The notes under the pieces are model-generated. The model saw only the letters and a program-made list of their open reading frames with translations, did no database searches and was not told the DNA's origin. Position numbers and translations under genes: made by a program. 7,473 bases of DNA, from positions 1 to 7,473 of the forward strand of contig NZ_CAMPHH010000166.1 in assembly GCF_946885855.1 (NCBI RefSeq). The letters are read 5' to 3'. The DNA comes from an uncultured Actinotalea sp. GTDB taxonomy: Bacteria > Actinomycetota > Actinomycetes > Actinomycetales > Cellulomonadaceae. Below, one piece after another: positions 1-7,473 of the stretch (position 1 is its first letter; each line of letters begins with the position of its first letter).

Positions 1-158
1 CCGAGCGGCGCGCCGCCGAGGGATCGCCCGCTGCGGCCGGCAACGCCTCGCCTGCACCCGCCCCGGCCCCGCTCCGTCCACCGGCCGCCCCGCGCCACAC
101 TCGCCACACCCACGACTCCGTCCCCAGGCCACCGCTGCTCCTGTCTGGGCCGCGCTCG
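1..158. other. GC-rich stretch with no supported gene
   Basis: No stop codon (TGA, TAG or TAA) occurs in any of the six frames between position 1 and about 286. That follows from the extreme GC content and is not evidence of coding. The + frame starting at position 3 reads as an Ala/Pro-rich tail and could be the end of a gene entering from the left. It runs without a stop to 543, deep inside the next gene, so I do not call it. On the - strand an AGGAG-like site precedes a GTG near 130, but the translation is rich in Arg, Gly and Cys and does not look like a protein. No tRNA or promoter was recognised. Confidence 0.4.
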
Positions 159-214
159 GTCGCAGATCTCGACGTTTCGGCGATCCTCGCGGCCGGAACG
201 TCGAAGTCTGCGAC
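159..214 (+). repeat. palindromic element, left copy (REP-like hairpin)
   Basis: An imperfect inverted repeat. Bases 159-181 can pair with 192-214, giving 23 pairs with one C-A mismatch (168/205) and two G-U pairs (167/206 and 177/196), around a 10-base loop. It has no T-run, so it is not a classical terminator. A diverged copy lies in opposite orientation at 1229-1281: the 17 bases at 170-186 match 1256-1272 (reverse strand) exactly, and 193-213 match 1229-1249 at 19 of 21 positions, with the same 6-base gap. The element lies 108 bases upstream of the DUF559 gene start. Calling it REP-like is inference from shape and repetition. Confidence 0.75.
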
Positions 215-322
215 GGGCGAGAAAAGGGAGACCGCCCGGGCGACCGTCCACCGCCAGTCCGGGGAGGCGCGATCCACAGCAGGGGCTCACGGTTCGTTCG
301 CGAGGGCGCCGCCTGCACCAGG

Positions 323-1252
323 ATGCTCGCCGTGGCGAGTCGTCTTCCCCCGTACTGGGTGCCCGGGGTCGCGCACCGCCAGGATGGCGTCTTCACGGCG
401 GCCCAGGCGGTTCGGGCCGGCGCGACACCGGCCCAGGTGCGGCACCGGCGTGAGCAGCGCGTCTGGAGGCGGCTCGTCGGAGCCGGTCTGGTCAGGGCGG
501 GACTGGAGGAGACACCCGGCAGGAAGGTCCAGGCGACGGGCCTGACGTGGCCGGGCTCTGTCGTCGCCTTCGAGACGGCCGCCGCCTTCCACCGGTTGCC
601 GGTCGCGGAAGACGGCCTGGTCCACGCGCTGGTGGAGCGGGCACCACGCCCGCGCGCGGGCATGGTGCCTCATCAGTACGACGTAGCTCCGAGCGACGTC
701 CTCGCGGTCGGAGCGGGGGCCGTCACGACCGTCCGCCGCACCGTGCTCGACTGCCTCGGTCGCGTCGACCCGGAGCAGGCCGAGCGCCTGGCGACCTGGG
801 CATTCACCCGTGAGCTGCTGACCGCCGAAGTGCTCGAGGACGCGATCGCCAGCCGTGCTGGGAAGCGGGGCACTCGAGCGCTCCGACGGGCACTGGCGGA
901 CATCGGTCACGGTGCCCTGAGTGCCGCGGAGCGACGACTGCACCAGCTCCTGATGCGGGCACGGGTCTCGGGGTGGGAGGCGGACGTCCGGATCCACGAC
1001 GCCCACGGCATCATCGGACGGGTCGACGTGCTCTTCCCGGCGTCGAAGGTCGTCATCGAGGTCGACGGGTACGCCTACCACGCACGGAGCTCGTTCCAGG
1101 CCGACAGGACGAAGCAGAACCGGCTGGTGGCCGCCGGCTACACCGTGCTCCGGTTCACCTGGGCGGACCTCACCGACCGTCCAGGGGCCGTCGTCACGAC
1201 GATTCGCCGCGCGACCGCCACCTCCGGATCGCACACTTCGACTTTCCGGTGA
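323..1252 (+). CDS. AbiEi-type winged-helix plus DUF559 (Vsr-like) endonuclease-domain protein
   Basis: Encodes 309 residues. Residues about 14-55 (core RQDGVFTAAQAVRAGATPAQ, then VWRR) match the N-terminal winged-helix region of AbiEi-like actinobacterial proteins. Residues about 80-145, ending TTVRRTVLDCL, match the middle of that family. Residues about 198-285 form a DUF559 domain of the PD-(D/E)XK fold: helix with E203, then RVDVLF (D235), VVIEVDGYAYH (E246, D248), Q265 and VLRFTW near 275-280. The likely catalytic set D235, E246 and D248 is intact, so the protein may cut or nick DNA; no substrate is known to me. Start: the ATG has only a weak upstream GAGGG (302-306), but no ATG, GTG or TTG was seen further upstream in this frame. 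Third codon positions hold more A/T than in rpsD or alaS, suggesting transfer. The last seven codons and the stop lie inside the right palindromic element. No partner toxin gene is adjacent, so an antitoxin role is not supported. Confidence 0.85.
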   Translation: MLAVASRLPPYWVPGVAHRQDGVFTAAQAVRAGATPAQVRHRREQRVWRRLVGAGLVRAGLEETPGRKVQATGLTWPGSVVAFETAAAFHRLPVAEDGLVHALVERAPRPRAGMVPHQYDVAPSDVLAVGAGAVTTVRRTVLDCLGRVDPEQAERLATWAFTRELLTAEVLEDAIASRAGKRGTRALRRALADIGHGALSAAERRLHQLLMRARVSGWEADVRIHDAHGIIGRVDVLFPASKVVIEVDGYAYHARSSFQADRTKQNRLVAAGYTVLRFTWADLTDRPGAVVTTIRRATATSGSHTSTFR

Positions 1253-1281
1253 CCGGGATCGCCGAAACGTCGGGATCCGGG
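1229..1281 (-). repeat. palindromic element, right copy, inverted and overlapping the gene end
   Basis: On the - strand this copy aligns to the left element over 161-213. Thirty-seven of the 44 core positions are identical, and about 43 of 53 including the flank. Its own hairpin is more decayed: 1237-1252 can pair with 1259-1274 with two mismatches and several G-U pairs, and an 11-base palindrome CCGGTgACCGG (1246-1256) sits in the middle. The DUF559 gene's stop codon (1250-1252) lies at its centre. It might also act as a terminator between that gene and rpsD, but has no T-run. Confidence 0.7.
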
Positions 1282-1338
1282 ACCGGGCATGGGGCGGTGC
1301 TGGCGCACCGAGGCACAGGGACGAGGCGGGCCCGTGGG

Positions 1339-1489: not shown

Positions 1490-2116
1490 GTGTCCTCTGT
1501 GACCCGTTCGCGCCGTCAGGTGCGTCTGTCCCGCGCCCTCGGCCTGGCGCTGACGCCCAAGGCCGTCCGCCACTTCGAGAAGCGCCCCTACCCGCCCGGT
1601 GAGCACGGCCGCGCCCGTCGCCGCACCGAGTCGGACTACGCCGTCCGGCTGCGGGAGAAGCAGCGCCTGCGCGCCCAGTACGGCCTGCGCGAAAAGCAGA
1701 TGGCCCGTGCCTTCGAGGAGGCCCGCAAGACGCCGGGCCTGACCGGTGAGGCGCTCGTCGAGAACCTCGAGACCCGCCTGGACGCGCTCGTGCTGCGCGC
1801 CGGCTTCGCCCGCACGATCCTCCAGGCTCGCCAGGTCGTCGTGCACCGGCACATCCTCGTCGACGGCAAGATCGTCGACCGGCCGTCGTTCAAGGTGAAG
1901 CCCGGCCAGACGCTGCAGATCAAGCCGCGCAGCCAGACGAGCGACCAGTTCCTCGTCGCGGCCGCCGGTGCCCACCGCGACGTCCTGCCGGCCGTGCCGG
2001 GCTACCTGGACGTGCAGCTGGAGAAGCTCAGCGCCGTGCTGACCCGTCGGCCGAAGCGCGCCGAGGTCCCGGTGACGTGCGAGGTCCAGCTCGTCGTCGA
2101 GTACTACTCGCGCTGA
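1490..2116 (+). CDS. rpsD: 30S ribosomal protein S4
   Basis: Encodes 208 residues, the normal length of bacterial S4. S4 nucleates assembly of the 30S body by binding the 5' domain of 16S rRNA, and affects decoding accuracy. The N-terminal domain carries SRRQVRLSRALG (7-18) and KRPYPPGEHGRARRR (31-45). The S4 RNA-binding fold lies at about 95-160, with RLDALVLRAGFA, QARQVVVHRHILVDGK and KVKPGQTLQI. The protein ends in VEYYSR, as in many S4 proteins. The only cysteine is C197, so this is the zinc-free form without the N-terminal CxxC pattern. The GTG start at 1490 is chosen because AGGAAG (1477-1482) lies seven bases upstream; the in-frame GTG at 1499 is too far from it. The gene stands apart from the usual rpsM-rpsK-rpoA cluster and is followed by its own terminator. 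Confidence 0.97.
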   Translation: MSSVTRSRRQVRLSRALGLALTPKAVRHFEKRPYPPGEHGRARRRTESDYAVRLREKQRLRAQYGLREKQMARAFEEARKTPGLTGEALVENLETRLDALVLRAGFARTILQARQVVVHRHILVDGKIVDRPSFKVKPGQTLQIKPRSQTSDQFLVAAAGAHRDVLPAVPGYLDVQLEKLSAVLTRRPKRAEVPVTCEVQLVVEYYSR

Positions 2117-3119: not shown

Positions 3120-3203
3120 ACCACACATCGAGCACCGGGCCCGAGCGGCCCACCCCGACGAGAGACCAGCGTGCCCCCGGGCCGCGACACACGTGAGGAC
3201 ACC

Positions 3204-5876
3204 ATGCGGACCGCCGAGATCCGACGCCGTTGGCTGCAGTACTTCGAGGGCCGCGGGCACGCCGTCGTGCCGAGCGCCTCCCTCGTCTCGCCCGACCCGT
3301 CGACGCTGTTCACGATCGCGGGCATGGTGCCGTTCATCCCGTACATGCTCGGTCAGCAGACCCCGCCGTGGAACCGGGCCACGAGCGTGCAGAAGTGCGT
3401 GCGCACGCTCGACATCGAGGAGGTCGGCAAGACCACCCGCCACGGCACGTTCTTCCAGATGAACGGCAACTTCTCCTTCGGTGACTACTTCAAGGAGGGG
3501 GCGATCGAGTACGCCTGGGAGCTCGTCACCGGCTCGCAGGAGGACGGCTGCTACGGGTTCGACCCGGACAAGGTCTGGGTCACCGTCTACCACGACGACG
3601 ACGAGGCGGCGCGCCTGTGGCGCAAGGTCGCCGGCCTGCCGGAGGAGCGCATCCAGCGCCGCGGCAAGAAGGACAACTACTGGCACACGGGCCAGCCCGG
3701 CCCGGCCGGCCCGTGCTCGGAGATCTACATCGACCGCGGCCCGGCGCACGGCCAGGACGGCGGCCCGGTCGTCGACGAGGACCGGTTCCTGGAGATCTGG
3801 AACCTCGTCTTCATGCAGTACGCGATCGACGACGTGCGCTCCAAGGAGGAGTTCCGGATCACCGGGGACCTCGCGCAGAAGAACATCGACACGGGCATGG
3901 GGCTCGAGCGCGTCGCGTACCTCCTCCAGGGCGTCGACAACATGTACGAGATCGACGAGGTCTTCCCCGTCATCCAGGCCGCCCAGGAGCTGTCCGGGCG
4001 CCGCTACGGCGCCAGCCGCGACGACGACGTCCGGATGCGGGTCGTGGCGGACCACGTGCGCTCGGCGCTCATGCTCATCGGTGACGGCATCACGCCGTCG
4101 AACGAGGGCCGTGGCTACGTGCTGCGCCGTCTGCTGCGCCGCTCCGTGCGGGCGATGCGGCTGCTCGGCGTCGACGAGCCCGCTCTGCCGCACCTGCTGC
4201 CGGTCTCCCGGGACGCGATGAGCCCCTCCTACCCGGAGCTCGCGACCGACTTCGACCGGATCTCCCGCGCCGCGTACGCCGAGGAGGAGACGTTCCGCCG
4301 CACGCTGGTGGCGGGCACGACGATCCTCGACACCGCGGTGGCGCAGGTGAAGGCGTCCGGCGGGGCGACCCTCGGCGGCGAGCAGGCGTTCACCCTGCAC
4401 GACACGTACGGGTTCCCCATCGACCTCACCCTCGAGATGGCCTCCGAGCAGGGCCTGACGGTCGACGAGCAGGGCTTCCGCGACCTCATGCAGGCCCAGC
4501 GCGAGCGCGCCCGCGCCGACGCGAAGTCCAAGAAGGGCGGGGCCGCGGCGACGACGGCGTACCGCGAGCTGCGGGACCAGGGCATCACCGAGTTCACGGG
4601 CTACTCCGAGCTGACGACCTCCTCGACGATCCGTGGCCTCCTGCGCGACGGCGCCGCCGTCCCGGCCGCGTCCGAGGGCGACACCGTCGAGGTCGTGCTG
4701 GAGCGGACGCCGTTCTACGCCGAGTCCGGTGGTCAGGAGTCCGACGCCGGGGTCATCACCGTCGACGGCGCGCGCCTGGAGGTCATCGACGTCCAGCGCC
4801 CGGTCAAGGGCCTCGTCGTGCACACCGCCCGCGTGGTGCAGGGCGAGGTGACCACGGGCGCCGAGGTGCTGGCGCAGGTGGACCCGGAGTGGCGCCGGGG
4901 CGCACGGCAGGCCCACTCGGGCACCCACGTCGTGCACGCGGCCCTGCGCGAGGTCCTCGGCCCGAACGCGCTGCAGTCCGGCTCGTACAACAAGCCCGGC
5001 TACCTGCGGCTCGACTTCTCCTGGAACCAGGCGCTCTCGGCCGCGACGCGCAGCGAGGTGGAGGACGTCTCGAACAAGGCCATCCGCGAGGACCTCGGCG
5101 TGAAGTGGCAGTACATGTCCCTGCCCGAGGCCAAGGCGTGGGGCGCGATCGCGCTCTTCGGCGAGACGTACGACGAGCAGGTGCGCGTCGTGGAGATCGG
5201 CGGCCCGTGGTCGCGCGAGCTGTGCGGTGGCACGCACGTGGACCACTCGAGCCAGATCGGCATCATCGCGCTGACGGGCGAGTCCTCCGTCGGCTCCGGG
5301 TCGCGGCGCGTAGAAGCAGTGGTCGGCCTCGAGGCGTTCCACCACCTGGCGCGCGAGCGTGCGCTGGTCACCGCGTTGACCGACGCCCTCAAGGTGCGCC
5401 CCGAGGAGCTGCCCGAGCGGGTCAGCGGCCTGGTGACGCGGCTCAAGGACGCGGAGAAGGAGCTCGCTGCGCTGCGGCAGGGCCAGCTGCTCGCCGCGGC
5501 GGGCTCGATCGCCTCCGGTGCGGCCGACGTCGCCGGCGTCCGGGTCGTCACGCACGAGGCGGGGACGGTCGCGTCGGCGGACGACCTGCGCACGCTGGCG
5601 CTGGACGTCCGCAACCGTCTCGGCGAGGCGCCGGCCGTCGTCGCGGTGGCGGGCGTGGCCAAGGAGCGCCCGGTGGTCCTCGTGACGGTCAACCCCGCCG
5701 GCCGGGGCGTGGGCCTGCGGGCCGGTGCGCTCGCGAAGGTCGCCGCCGGTGCGCTCGGTGGAGGTGGCGGGGGCAAGGACGACGTCGCGCAGGGTGGCGG
5801 CACGGACGTCACCGCACTGCCGACGGCGCTCGGGGCCGTGGCGGCCGCCGTCGCCGAGACCGCGGGTGGTCGCTGA
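3204..5876 (+). CDS. alaS: alanine-tRNA ligase (alanyl-tRNA synthetase)
   Basis: Encodes 890 residues, full length for the family. It charges tRNA-Ala with alanine using ATP and clears mischarged Ser- and Gly-tRNA. The class II catalytic core is at about 1-245: TAEIRRRWLQYFEGRGH at the N-terminus, motif 2 near RHGTFFQMNGNFSFGDYF (79-96) and motif 3 GMGLERVAYL (231-240). The tRNA-recognition region follows to about 460. The editing domain holds the zinc ligands H571 and H575 (HSGTH) and C674 and H678 (CGGTH), all present. The C-terminal DHHA1/C-Ala part ends with a Gly-rich stretch (852-866). The ATG at 3204 is preferred because it follows GTGAGGA (3193-3199) and gives the usual N-terminus; an in-frame GTG at 3171 would add 11 residues with no family match. 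The gene stops one base before the proposed ruvX start. Confidence 0.98.
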   Translation: MRTAEIRRRWLQYFEGRGHAVVPSASLVSPDPSTLFTIAGMVPFIPYMLGQQTPPWNRATSVQKCVRTLDIEEVGKTTRHGTFFQMNGNFSFGDYFKEGAIEYAWELVTGSQEDGCYGFDPDKVWVTVYHDDDEAARLWRKVAGLPEERIQRRGKKDNYWHTGQPGPAGPCSEIYIDRGPAHGQDGGPVVDEDRFLEIWNLVFMQYAIDDVRSKEEFRITGDLAQKNIDTGMGLERVAYLLQGVDNMYEIDEVFPVIQAAQELSGRRYGASRDDDVRMRVVADHVRSALMLIGDGITPSNEGRGYVLRRLLRRSVRAMRLLGVDEPALPHLLPVSRDAMSPSYPELATDFDRISRAAYAEEETFRRTLVAGTTILDTAVAQVKASGGATLGGEQAFTLHDTYGFPIDLTLEMASEQGLTVDEQGFRDLMQAQRERARADAKSKKGGAAATTAYRELRDQGITEFTGYSELTTSSTIRGLLRDGAAVPAASEGDTVEVVLERTPFYAESGGQESDAGVITVDGARLEVIDVQRPVKGLVVHTARVVQGEVTTGAEVLAQVDPEWRRGARQAHSGTHVVHAALREVLGPNALQSGSYNKPGYLRLDFSWNQALSAATRSEVEDVSNKAIREDLGVKWQYMSLPEAKAWGAIALFGETYDEQVRVVEIGGPWSRELCGGTHVDHSSQIGIIALTGESSVGSGSRRVEAVVGLEAFHHLARERALVTALTDALKVRPEELPERVSGLVTRLKDAEKELAALRQGQLLAAAGSIASGAADVAGVRVVTHEAGTVASADDLRTLALDVRNRLGEAPAVVAVAGVAKERPVVLVTVNPAGRGVGLRAGALAKVAAGALGGGGGGKDDVAQGGGTDVTALPTALGAVAAAVAETAGGR

Positions 5877-6475: not shown

Positions 6476-7473
6476 GTGAACGACGTGTTCCTGGACGAGG
6501 TGATCCGACCGGACCCGTCCGAGGAGGGGCGCGCGCGCCGCCGCGGCGGTCGCGAGGAGCGGGAGCGGAAGCGCCGTCAGCGCCGGCAGCGCAGCATGAT
6601 CGCCGTCATCATCGCGCTGCTCGTGCTCGGCGGTGCCGCCTACGCCATCGTGCAGGTCGCCGGCCCGATGATCTCCTCGCTCGGTGACCGCGAGACCCCG
6701 GTGGAGGACTTCCCCGGCCCCGGCACCGGCAACGTCGAGGTGACGATCGAGGCGGGCGCCTCGGGCGGGCCGATGGGCCAGACGCTGGCCGAGGCGGGCG
6801 TGGTGGCGTCGGCGACGGCGTTCTCGCGTGCGTTCGCCGCGAACCCCGACGCCGCGGGCATCCAGCCCGGCACGTACCGGCTGCTGCTCGAGATGCGCGC
6901 GCAGGACGCCGTGGCCGCCCTCCTGGAGCCCGCGAACCGTGTCCAGACCCGGGTCACGATCCCCGAGGGGCTGCGGGCGGACCAGATCCTCGAGCGGCTC
7001 TCCTCGGTGACGGCCGTCCCGGTCGCCGACTTCGAGGCCGCGATGCAGGACACGGCCGCGACGGGCCTGCCGGCGGAGGCCGAGGGCAACTACGAGGGCT
7101 GGCTCTTCCCGGCGACGTACACGTTCCAGCCGGGGACCACGCCGACCGAGATGATCGCGGAGATGGTCGCCCAGACCCTGGCCCGCCTGGACGCCCGCGG
7201 CGTGCCCGCCGACCAGCGGGAGACCGTGCTCATCAAGGCCTCGCTGGTGGAGCGCGAGGCACGGTCGCCGGAGGACCGCCGCAAGGTCGCGCAGGCGATC
7301 GAGAACCGGCTCGCGATCGACATGAAGCTCGACATCGACGCCGCCGTCGCCTACGGCCTCGGCAAGTCCGGCACCGAGCTGACCCGCGACGACACCCAGA
7401 ACAGCGACACGCCCTACAACCTGTACCGCTACACGGGCCTGCCGCCGACGCCGATCGCCTCGCCGAGCGAGAC
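6476..7473 (+). CDS. mltG: endolytic murein transglycosylase MltG, 3' end missing
   Basis: The first 332 residues are present and the gene runs off the window. MltG is a membrane-bound lytic transglycosylase that cuts nascent glycan strands and helps set their length. Residues 1-40 are cytoplasmic and strongly basic (RKRRQRRQRS before the membrane). Residues 41-63 form a single transmembrane helix (IAVIIALLVLGGAAYAIVQV). Residues about 87-155 resemble the LysM-like subdomain, with IQPGTYRLL. The catalytic YceG domain begins near 158 with VTIPEGLRADQI, then NYEGWLFPATYTF (205-217), the active-site segment IKASLVEREA (253-262, catalytic Glu probably E259), IENRL (275-279) and NLYRYTGLPPTPIASP (315-330). 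The GTG start follows GGGAGG (6463-6468) by seven bases. It lies 34 bases after ruvX, in the same likely transcript. Confidence 0.95.
   Translation, partial: MNDVFLDEVIRPDPSEEGRARRRGGREERERKRRQRRQRSMIAVIIALLVLGGAAYAIVQVAGPMISSLGDRETPVEDFPGPGTGNVEVTIEAGASGGPMGQTLAEAGVVASATAFSRAFAANPDAAGIQPGTYRLLLEMRAQDAVAALLEPANRVQTRVTIPEGLRADQILERLSSVTAVPVADFEAAMQDTAATGLPAEAEGNYEGWLFPATYTFQPGTTPTEMIAEMVAQTLARLDARGVPADQRETVLIKASLVEREARSPEDRRKVAQAIENRLAIDMKLDIDAAVAYGLGKSGTELTRDDTQNSDTPYNLYRYTGLPPTPIASPSE

Follow-up and report, generated by a model that had tools for sequence, protein, structure and literature searches.

The window analyzed here, the whole 7,473-nt stretch of DNA from an uncultured Actinotalea sp., contains a gene for a 309-residue protein located upstream of rpsD and associated with two related elements in inverted orientation (Table 1). 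The gene product matches DUF559 (Pfam E 9.9e-9), as had been proposed in a preliminary description of this DNA, and RpsD, DUF948, and RuvX were identified among the neighbors, which bears out the housekeeping setting given there. The open reading frames at 3171–5876 and 6476–7471 we take to be alaS and mltG, respectively. Rfam gave no matches in the window at gathering thresholds.

The longest inverted repeat in the window is formed by positions 154–213 and 1229–1288 (60 nt, 82% complementary). The pair has a local score of 32.5, while 1000 dinucleotide shuffles of the flanks gave at most 17.0, and none of 300 shuffles of the upstream flank produced a palindrome scoring as high as the left element. 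The alignment bears out the reported blocks, one of 17 bases that is exact and one of 21 bases with 19 matches, and the 6-base gap between them. Both elements had been described as palindromes bracketing the gene; this stands for the left one, while the right one is decayed (score below 11 in the palindrome scan, no single-hairpin fold) and overlaps the 3' end of the gene (stop codon, 1250–1252). A separate inverted repeat with 15-bp arms at 2125–2170, right after rpsD, is present also in the related loci L001 and L002 and is probably the rpsD terminator.

Table 1. Features of the AbiEi-DUF559 locus in the window
Feature	Position	Strand	Remarks
Left palindromic element	154..214	+	palindrome 159-214: two arms of 23 nt, 10-nt loop
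Gene for AbiEi-like + DUF559 (Vsr-fold) protein, 309 aa	323..1252	+	start codon uncertain
AbiEi-like half, residues 6-195	338..907	+	winged-helix DNA-binding and antitoxin-like domains
Vsr/I-Bth0305I-like nuclease domain, residues 199-303	917..1231	+	
Right element	1229..1288	-	inverted relative to left; decayed palindrome; overlaps 3' end of gene
rpsD	1490..2116	+	downstream neighbor; marks conserved site (rarA-[cassette]-rpsD in relatives)

The N-terminal half of the protein is AbiEi-like (PADLOC E 2.6e-17, residues 16–186), with a winged helix-turn-helix and an antitoxin domain of this type. It is followed by a Vsr fold with conserved catalytic residues: in 100 aligned sequences E203, E246, D248, and H253 are invariant, and D235 is conserved in at least 90%. 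The fusion of a nuclease domain to the C-terminal end distinguishes the protein from the AbiE type IV toxin-antitoxin proteins (AbiEi, Rv2827c), as does the gene order. No AbiEii (DUF1814) toxin gene adjoins it at this locus, where rpsD and DUF948 are among the genes that follow in the window; relatives carrying the gene here have rarA and rpsD as its neighbors. The protein shares its nuclease fold and conserved acidic and histidine residues with Vsr, I-Bth0305I, and DUF559 endonucleases, including Caulobacter VsrA (PMC12907096). It differs from these enzymes in having the extra AbiEi-like half and private palindromes, and no cytosine methyltransferase was present among the five window proteins scanned.

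The nearest relatives found also belong to Actinotalea. In L001 (78% protein identity) and L002 (70%), the gene lies before rpsD with palindromes on both sides. The L001 palindromes, two copies upstream and one downstream, are of the window family; genome G001 holds few copies of the window-type palindrome, and a cluster of part-copies is found there at another intergenic place (C1:424.6 kb). The L002 palindromes do not align with that of the window, a first sign that gene and palindromes change together. The gene copy in G002 (L002/L051) has one in-frame TAG, due to either decay or an error in MAG assembly.

Among 19 Actinotalea genomes, the gene was present between rarA and rpsD in seven, oriented as in the window in G001 and G002 and reversed in G007, G010, G014, G015, and G016. 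Eleven genomes lack it at this site: in ten, rarA is located ~139–342 nt before rpsD, and in G012 the gap is longer. The site in G006 is cut by a contig end and is unreadable. Two further genomes of the family, G079 and G024, also carry the gene at rarA-rpsD. In G010 and G015, the cassette begins no more than ~30 nt from the rarA stop codon and ends ahead of the rpsD leader. The preliminary description had the gene and repeats moving or spreading as a unit; two palindrome families are indeed dispersed in relatives (see below), while movement of the whole unit is no more than suggested by the occupied and empty rarA-rpsD sites.

We compared the palindromes alone from the seven cassettes in which they could be read on both sides (the window, G001, G002, G007, G010, G014, and G015) and found five palindrome families. 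Scores between the left and right sides of the same cassette ranged from 16.5 to 34.5, compared with 11 or less across families; G007 and G010, which share one family, matched each other (26.0) better than their own opposite sides (20.5 and 21.0). We conclude that left and right sites turned over together. Two cases at the same place go against this: L049 (G016) has a single strong palindrome only, and L096 (G024) has neither a palindrome over the threshold nor a shared flank repeat. Hence the expectation that the gene would be found flanked at this locus holds for the closest relatives, L001 and L002, and fails for L096 at the threshold used.

A PF04480 search gave 147 places in the family, spread over 97 of its 150 genomes, and 23 places in 14 of the 19 genus genomes, for a total of 151 distinct places; in 53 of the 150 it found no DUF559 gene. 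DUF559/Vsr-like genes are common in this actinobacterial family, and to our knowledge no role has been assigned to them in it. Among the papers listed in a survey of titles and abstract openings, a scope that leaves out most subscription papers, none links DUF559 genes to private palindromes. We examined 106 of the 151 places, the other 45 being mostly the weakest matches, with some near contig ends or in very long frames, and 104 genes had enough flank for analysis (L051 and L065 were dropped). A shared flank repeat, defined as an upstream-downstream local score of at least 18, was detected at 76 of the 104 genes. Genes called as controls from these loci had one in 12 of 102 cases, and swapped flank pairs in 5 of 307. 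Palindromes scoring at least 12 were present on both sides of 35 of 104 DUF559 genes and 2 of 102 controls. The elements, which the preliminary description had tied to DUF559 genes, are thus strongly enriched near them, and the REP/RAYT-like layout it had recognized is real and general. Palindrome sequences vary between genes, yet left matches right within a gene. The remaining 28 genes, including L049 and L096 at the rpsD site, lacked a shared flank repeat at this threshold.

A quick tree of 98 proteins revealed three large clades, with flank pairing in 11 of 17, 23 of 32, and 43 of 46 members; it was seen in none of three proteins of a far outgroup and none of seven tested proteins of other architecture. 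Palindrome arms of clade I are, by eye, ~45–80 nt apart, and this clade was missed by the palindrome scan, which allowed loops of up to 24 nt. The gene-free rarA-rpsD gap of G008 (L167) seems, by eye, to hold a long-loop inverted repeat resembling that of a clade I DUF559 gene (L054) elsewhere in this genome. When each gene's own left-right score was set against its highest cross score with the nearest relative, the own score was higher in 21 of 38 comparisons at a protein distance of at least 0.7, 4 of 24 at 0.3–0.7, and 0 of 15 below 0.3; because cross scores include shared coding sequence, we count this tree-based comparison for neither side. Beyond the family, 34 of 44 loci entered the sample and 32 had enough flank. 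Six of these 32 (from an Acidobacteria MAG, a Nanopelagicales MAG, a Planctomycetaceae MAG, Microlunatus, Leifsonia, and Corynebacterium striatum) share a flank repeat, compared with 3 of 241 swapped pairs, and 26 do not; generality outside the family is therefore only partial.

Beyond the window type, genomes were searched for dispersed copies of three palindromes. That of L138, 60 nt long, was found at 17 places in G035, 14 of them 97%–100% identical, the copies matching along the whole length, loop included; it was absent from 15 other family genomes. G056, the only other genome of the same genus in the set, has a single copy, located at a shared place, and lacks an L138-type gene (its closest match, at 29% identity, falls in another clade). 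One further place, at the other end of the same gene, has the palindrome in G035 and is empty in G056, with flanks too diverged for exact borders; the link between gene presence and copy number is that of this one genome pair. The L117 palindrome was present at three places in G152, two beside the gene and one ~20 kb away, and at none in 15 other family genomes. Counted on both strands, the L134 palindrome had 107 matches in G062 and 118 in G043, at no fewer than 40 and 51 distinct places, respectively, and none in nine other genomes. In these relatives, gene flanks and dispersed intergenic places share a palindrome family. The G035 copies (L183–L193) have pyrimidine-rich left and purine-rich right flanks in 11 of 16 cases, compared with a background of 0.27%; as a general feature this switch was rejected, being seen at 1 of 78 strong palindromes at DUF559 genes.

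The Y1_Tnp domain of RAYT/IS200 proteins (PF01797, E 0.01) was found in none of the 20 genomes of the set; as a positive control, it was matched in 6 of 14 control genomes. This result bears on the possibility that the palindromes are ordinary repeats, either terminators or REPs spread by something else, and that the gene is a passenger tolerating such places. Shared flank repeats at 12 control genes and the single palindrome copy in gene-less G056 would agree with a passenger. However, every gene has a palindrome of its own, with matching copies on the two sides, the three palindromes above were missing from 15, 15, and 9 other family genomes, and a Y1 transposase was not among the 20 genomes, so we give the passenger explanation the least credence of those considered.

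To look at individual sites, we used 20 fetched loci from each of G062 and G043, plus the gene loci. They contain 66 (G062) and 68 (G043) copies of a 43-nt site with the common half-site CGATAGCNGATCNNNNC. Neighboring copies are phased: among spacings below 200 nt (39 per genome), 31 in G062 and 33 in G043 are within 1 nt of 62, 72, 82, or 92, and the spacers between phased copies are unrelated (34%–43% identity). Base pairs at the inner eight positions number 5.03 and 5.09 per copy, compared with 4.79 and 4.90 after shuffling (s.d. 0.13 each). A single-stranded hairpin as the substrate in this family received little support from covariation only 1.8 and 1.5 s.d. over the shuffles. The helical phasing together with low inner covariation suggests that the sites of the G062/G043 family are bound by protein as duplex DNA, the way AbiEi binds. 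Near-perfect arms at other genes, such as the perfect or near-perfect 26- to 38-bp arms at L117, L125, L130, L138, and L142, would also fit the hairpin idea of the preliminary description.

G062 and G043 both hold copies at all 14 compared places (14 of 20 G062 loci were compared). This palindrome family is therefore not moving fast, and the two genomes, being close kin with shared places, are not independent samples. By crude gene calls, none of 52 clusters lies inside a called ORF, and of 50 clusters with both neighbors called, 23 are in convergent, 23 in co-directional, and 4 in divergent intergenic regions.

This placement helps to evaluate a regulatory role. According to PMC7319586, two AbiEi monomers bind a pair of 23-bp inverted repeats separated by 3 bp, and the Rv2827c repeats are 13 bp apart. 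By analogy, the palindromes might be AbiEi-type operators of an autoregulating repressor with a nuclease or ex-nuclease domain, the copies representing its own promoter site and a small regulon rather than mobile DNA. AbiEi and Rv2827c do bind paired inverted repeats in their own promoters; in our set, the upstream palindrome commonly lies ~1000–1170 nt before the stop codon, an estimated ~100–200 nt before the gene start, and the phased arrays suggest cooperative binding. Yet many genes have a matching copy at the stop codon or just past it, divergent intergenic regions, where promoters are, account for only 4 of the 50 G062/G043 clusters while 23 are convergent, and the G035 copies match over their full length including the loop. 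Sites on both sides of the gene, dispersed in some genomes, are also unlike AbiE. The operator explanation fits the upstream site best and the dispersed copies poorly, and we regard it as unlikely overall.

The chromosomal distribution of copies is uneven, with a concentration around dnaA on C1 of both G062 and G035. Of the 27 G062 clusters listed, 17 are no more than 500 kb from dnaA (8.1 expected, p 4e-4, with the radius picked after looking), and 14 of 17 palindrome places in G035 are on the dnaA contig (p 2.5e-7). MatP structures the chromosome terminus region at matS, and a protein binding origin-proximal phased arrays could likewise structure its region, a role with which both biases, the phased spacing, and the exclusion of clusters from called ORFs would be compatible. 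We nevertheless consider such an organizer improbable: the nuclease residues are invariant, the search found no DUF559 gene in 53 of the 150 family genomes, as would not be expected of a core organizer, and the G152 palindrome family has only three places. Moreover, the G035 gene itself is ~23 kb from dnaA, and proximity to the origin and to the gene are inseparable in this genome.

We favor, as on balance probable, a reading in which the gene and its private palindromes, judged cognate from their adjacency, are a pair working like a REPtron (RAYT/TnpA-REP) with an unrelated enzyme; that the protein binds, cuts, and mobilizes its sites is inferred. As in REPtrons, an enzyme gene is flanked by a private palindrome family with dispersed intergenic copies, and the copies are frequent between convergent and rare between divergent genes, as REPs are in PMC3733652. 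Unlike in REPtrons, there is no Y1/HUH transposase in the 20 genomes and a Vsr-fold nuclease is present instead, the sites are longer, and one family has half-sites resembling protein sites on duplex DNA. The TIRtron, a RAYT-like gene flanked by long TIRs (PMC3733652), is similar in that the gene is bracketed by inverted repeats, some forming repeated families, and dissimilar in its unrelated enzyme class. The AbiEi-DUF559 gene with its private palindromes thus looks like an undescribed REP-like system. More tentatively, and with less than even confidence, we propose that a second class of REP-like systems evolved independently in Actinobacteria and beyond, with AbiEi-DUF559 proteins as its founding enzymes. 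Each enzyme would read a private double site on duplex DNA, the left and right sites would change in step with its specificity, and in some lineages the sites would have become helically phased arrays near the origin.

The favored reading would work as follows. A protein with an AbiEi-like DNA-reading half fused to a Vsr-fold nuclease would recognize private inverted-repeat sites of ~43–65 nt, two monomers probably reading one arm each on duplex DNA, like AbiEi at its promoter. Copies of the site would be retained on either flank of the gene and could spread into further intergenic places. The protein would bind its own sites and nick or cut there. A Vsr-type nuclease can nick or cut and cannot join, so spread is supposed to proceed as in homing, with cuts at related sites being repaired from a copy that bears the site. 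The step from binding to spread is the weakest part of the reading, since nucleases of the PD-(D/E)XK type have no intrinsic chemistry for strand transfer.

If each gene has a private DNA site, a testable substrate is available for every one of these enzymes. If the favored reading is true, REP-like palindrome families can arise with a nuclease unrelated to RAYT transposases. This would bear on which enzyme made palindrome families lacking a dedicated transposase, for example, the CGTC repeats of PMC3733652, a link that we offer as a suggestion only.

Finally, two gene-scale differences between G062 and G043 loci were noticed. L221 and L226 differ by ~7 kb containing a sugar-transport-like operon, and L225 and L238 by ~2.5 kb containing a glycosyltransferase-like and a membrane-protein-like gene (genes named by eye). 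Both ends of each difference are at palindromes, as if the repeats mediated gene gain or loss between the two genomes.
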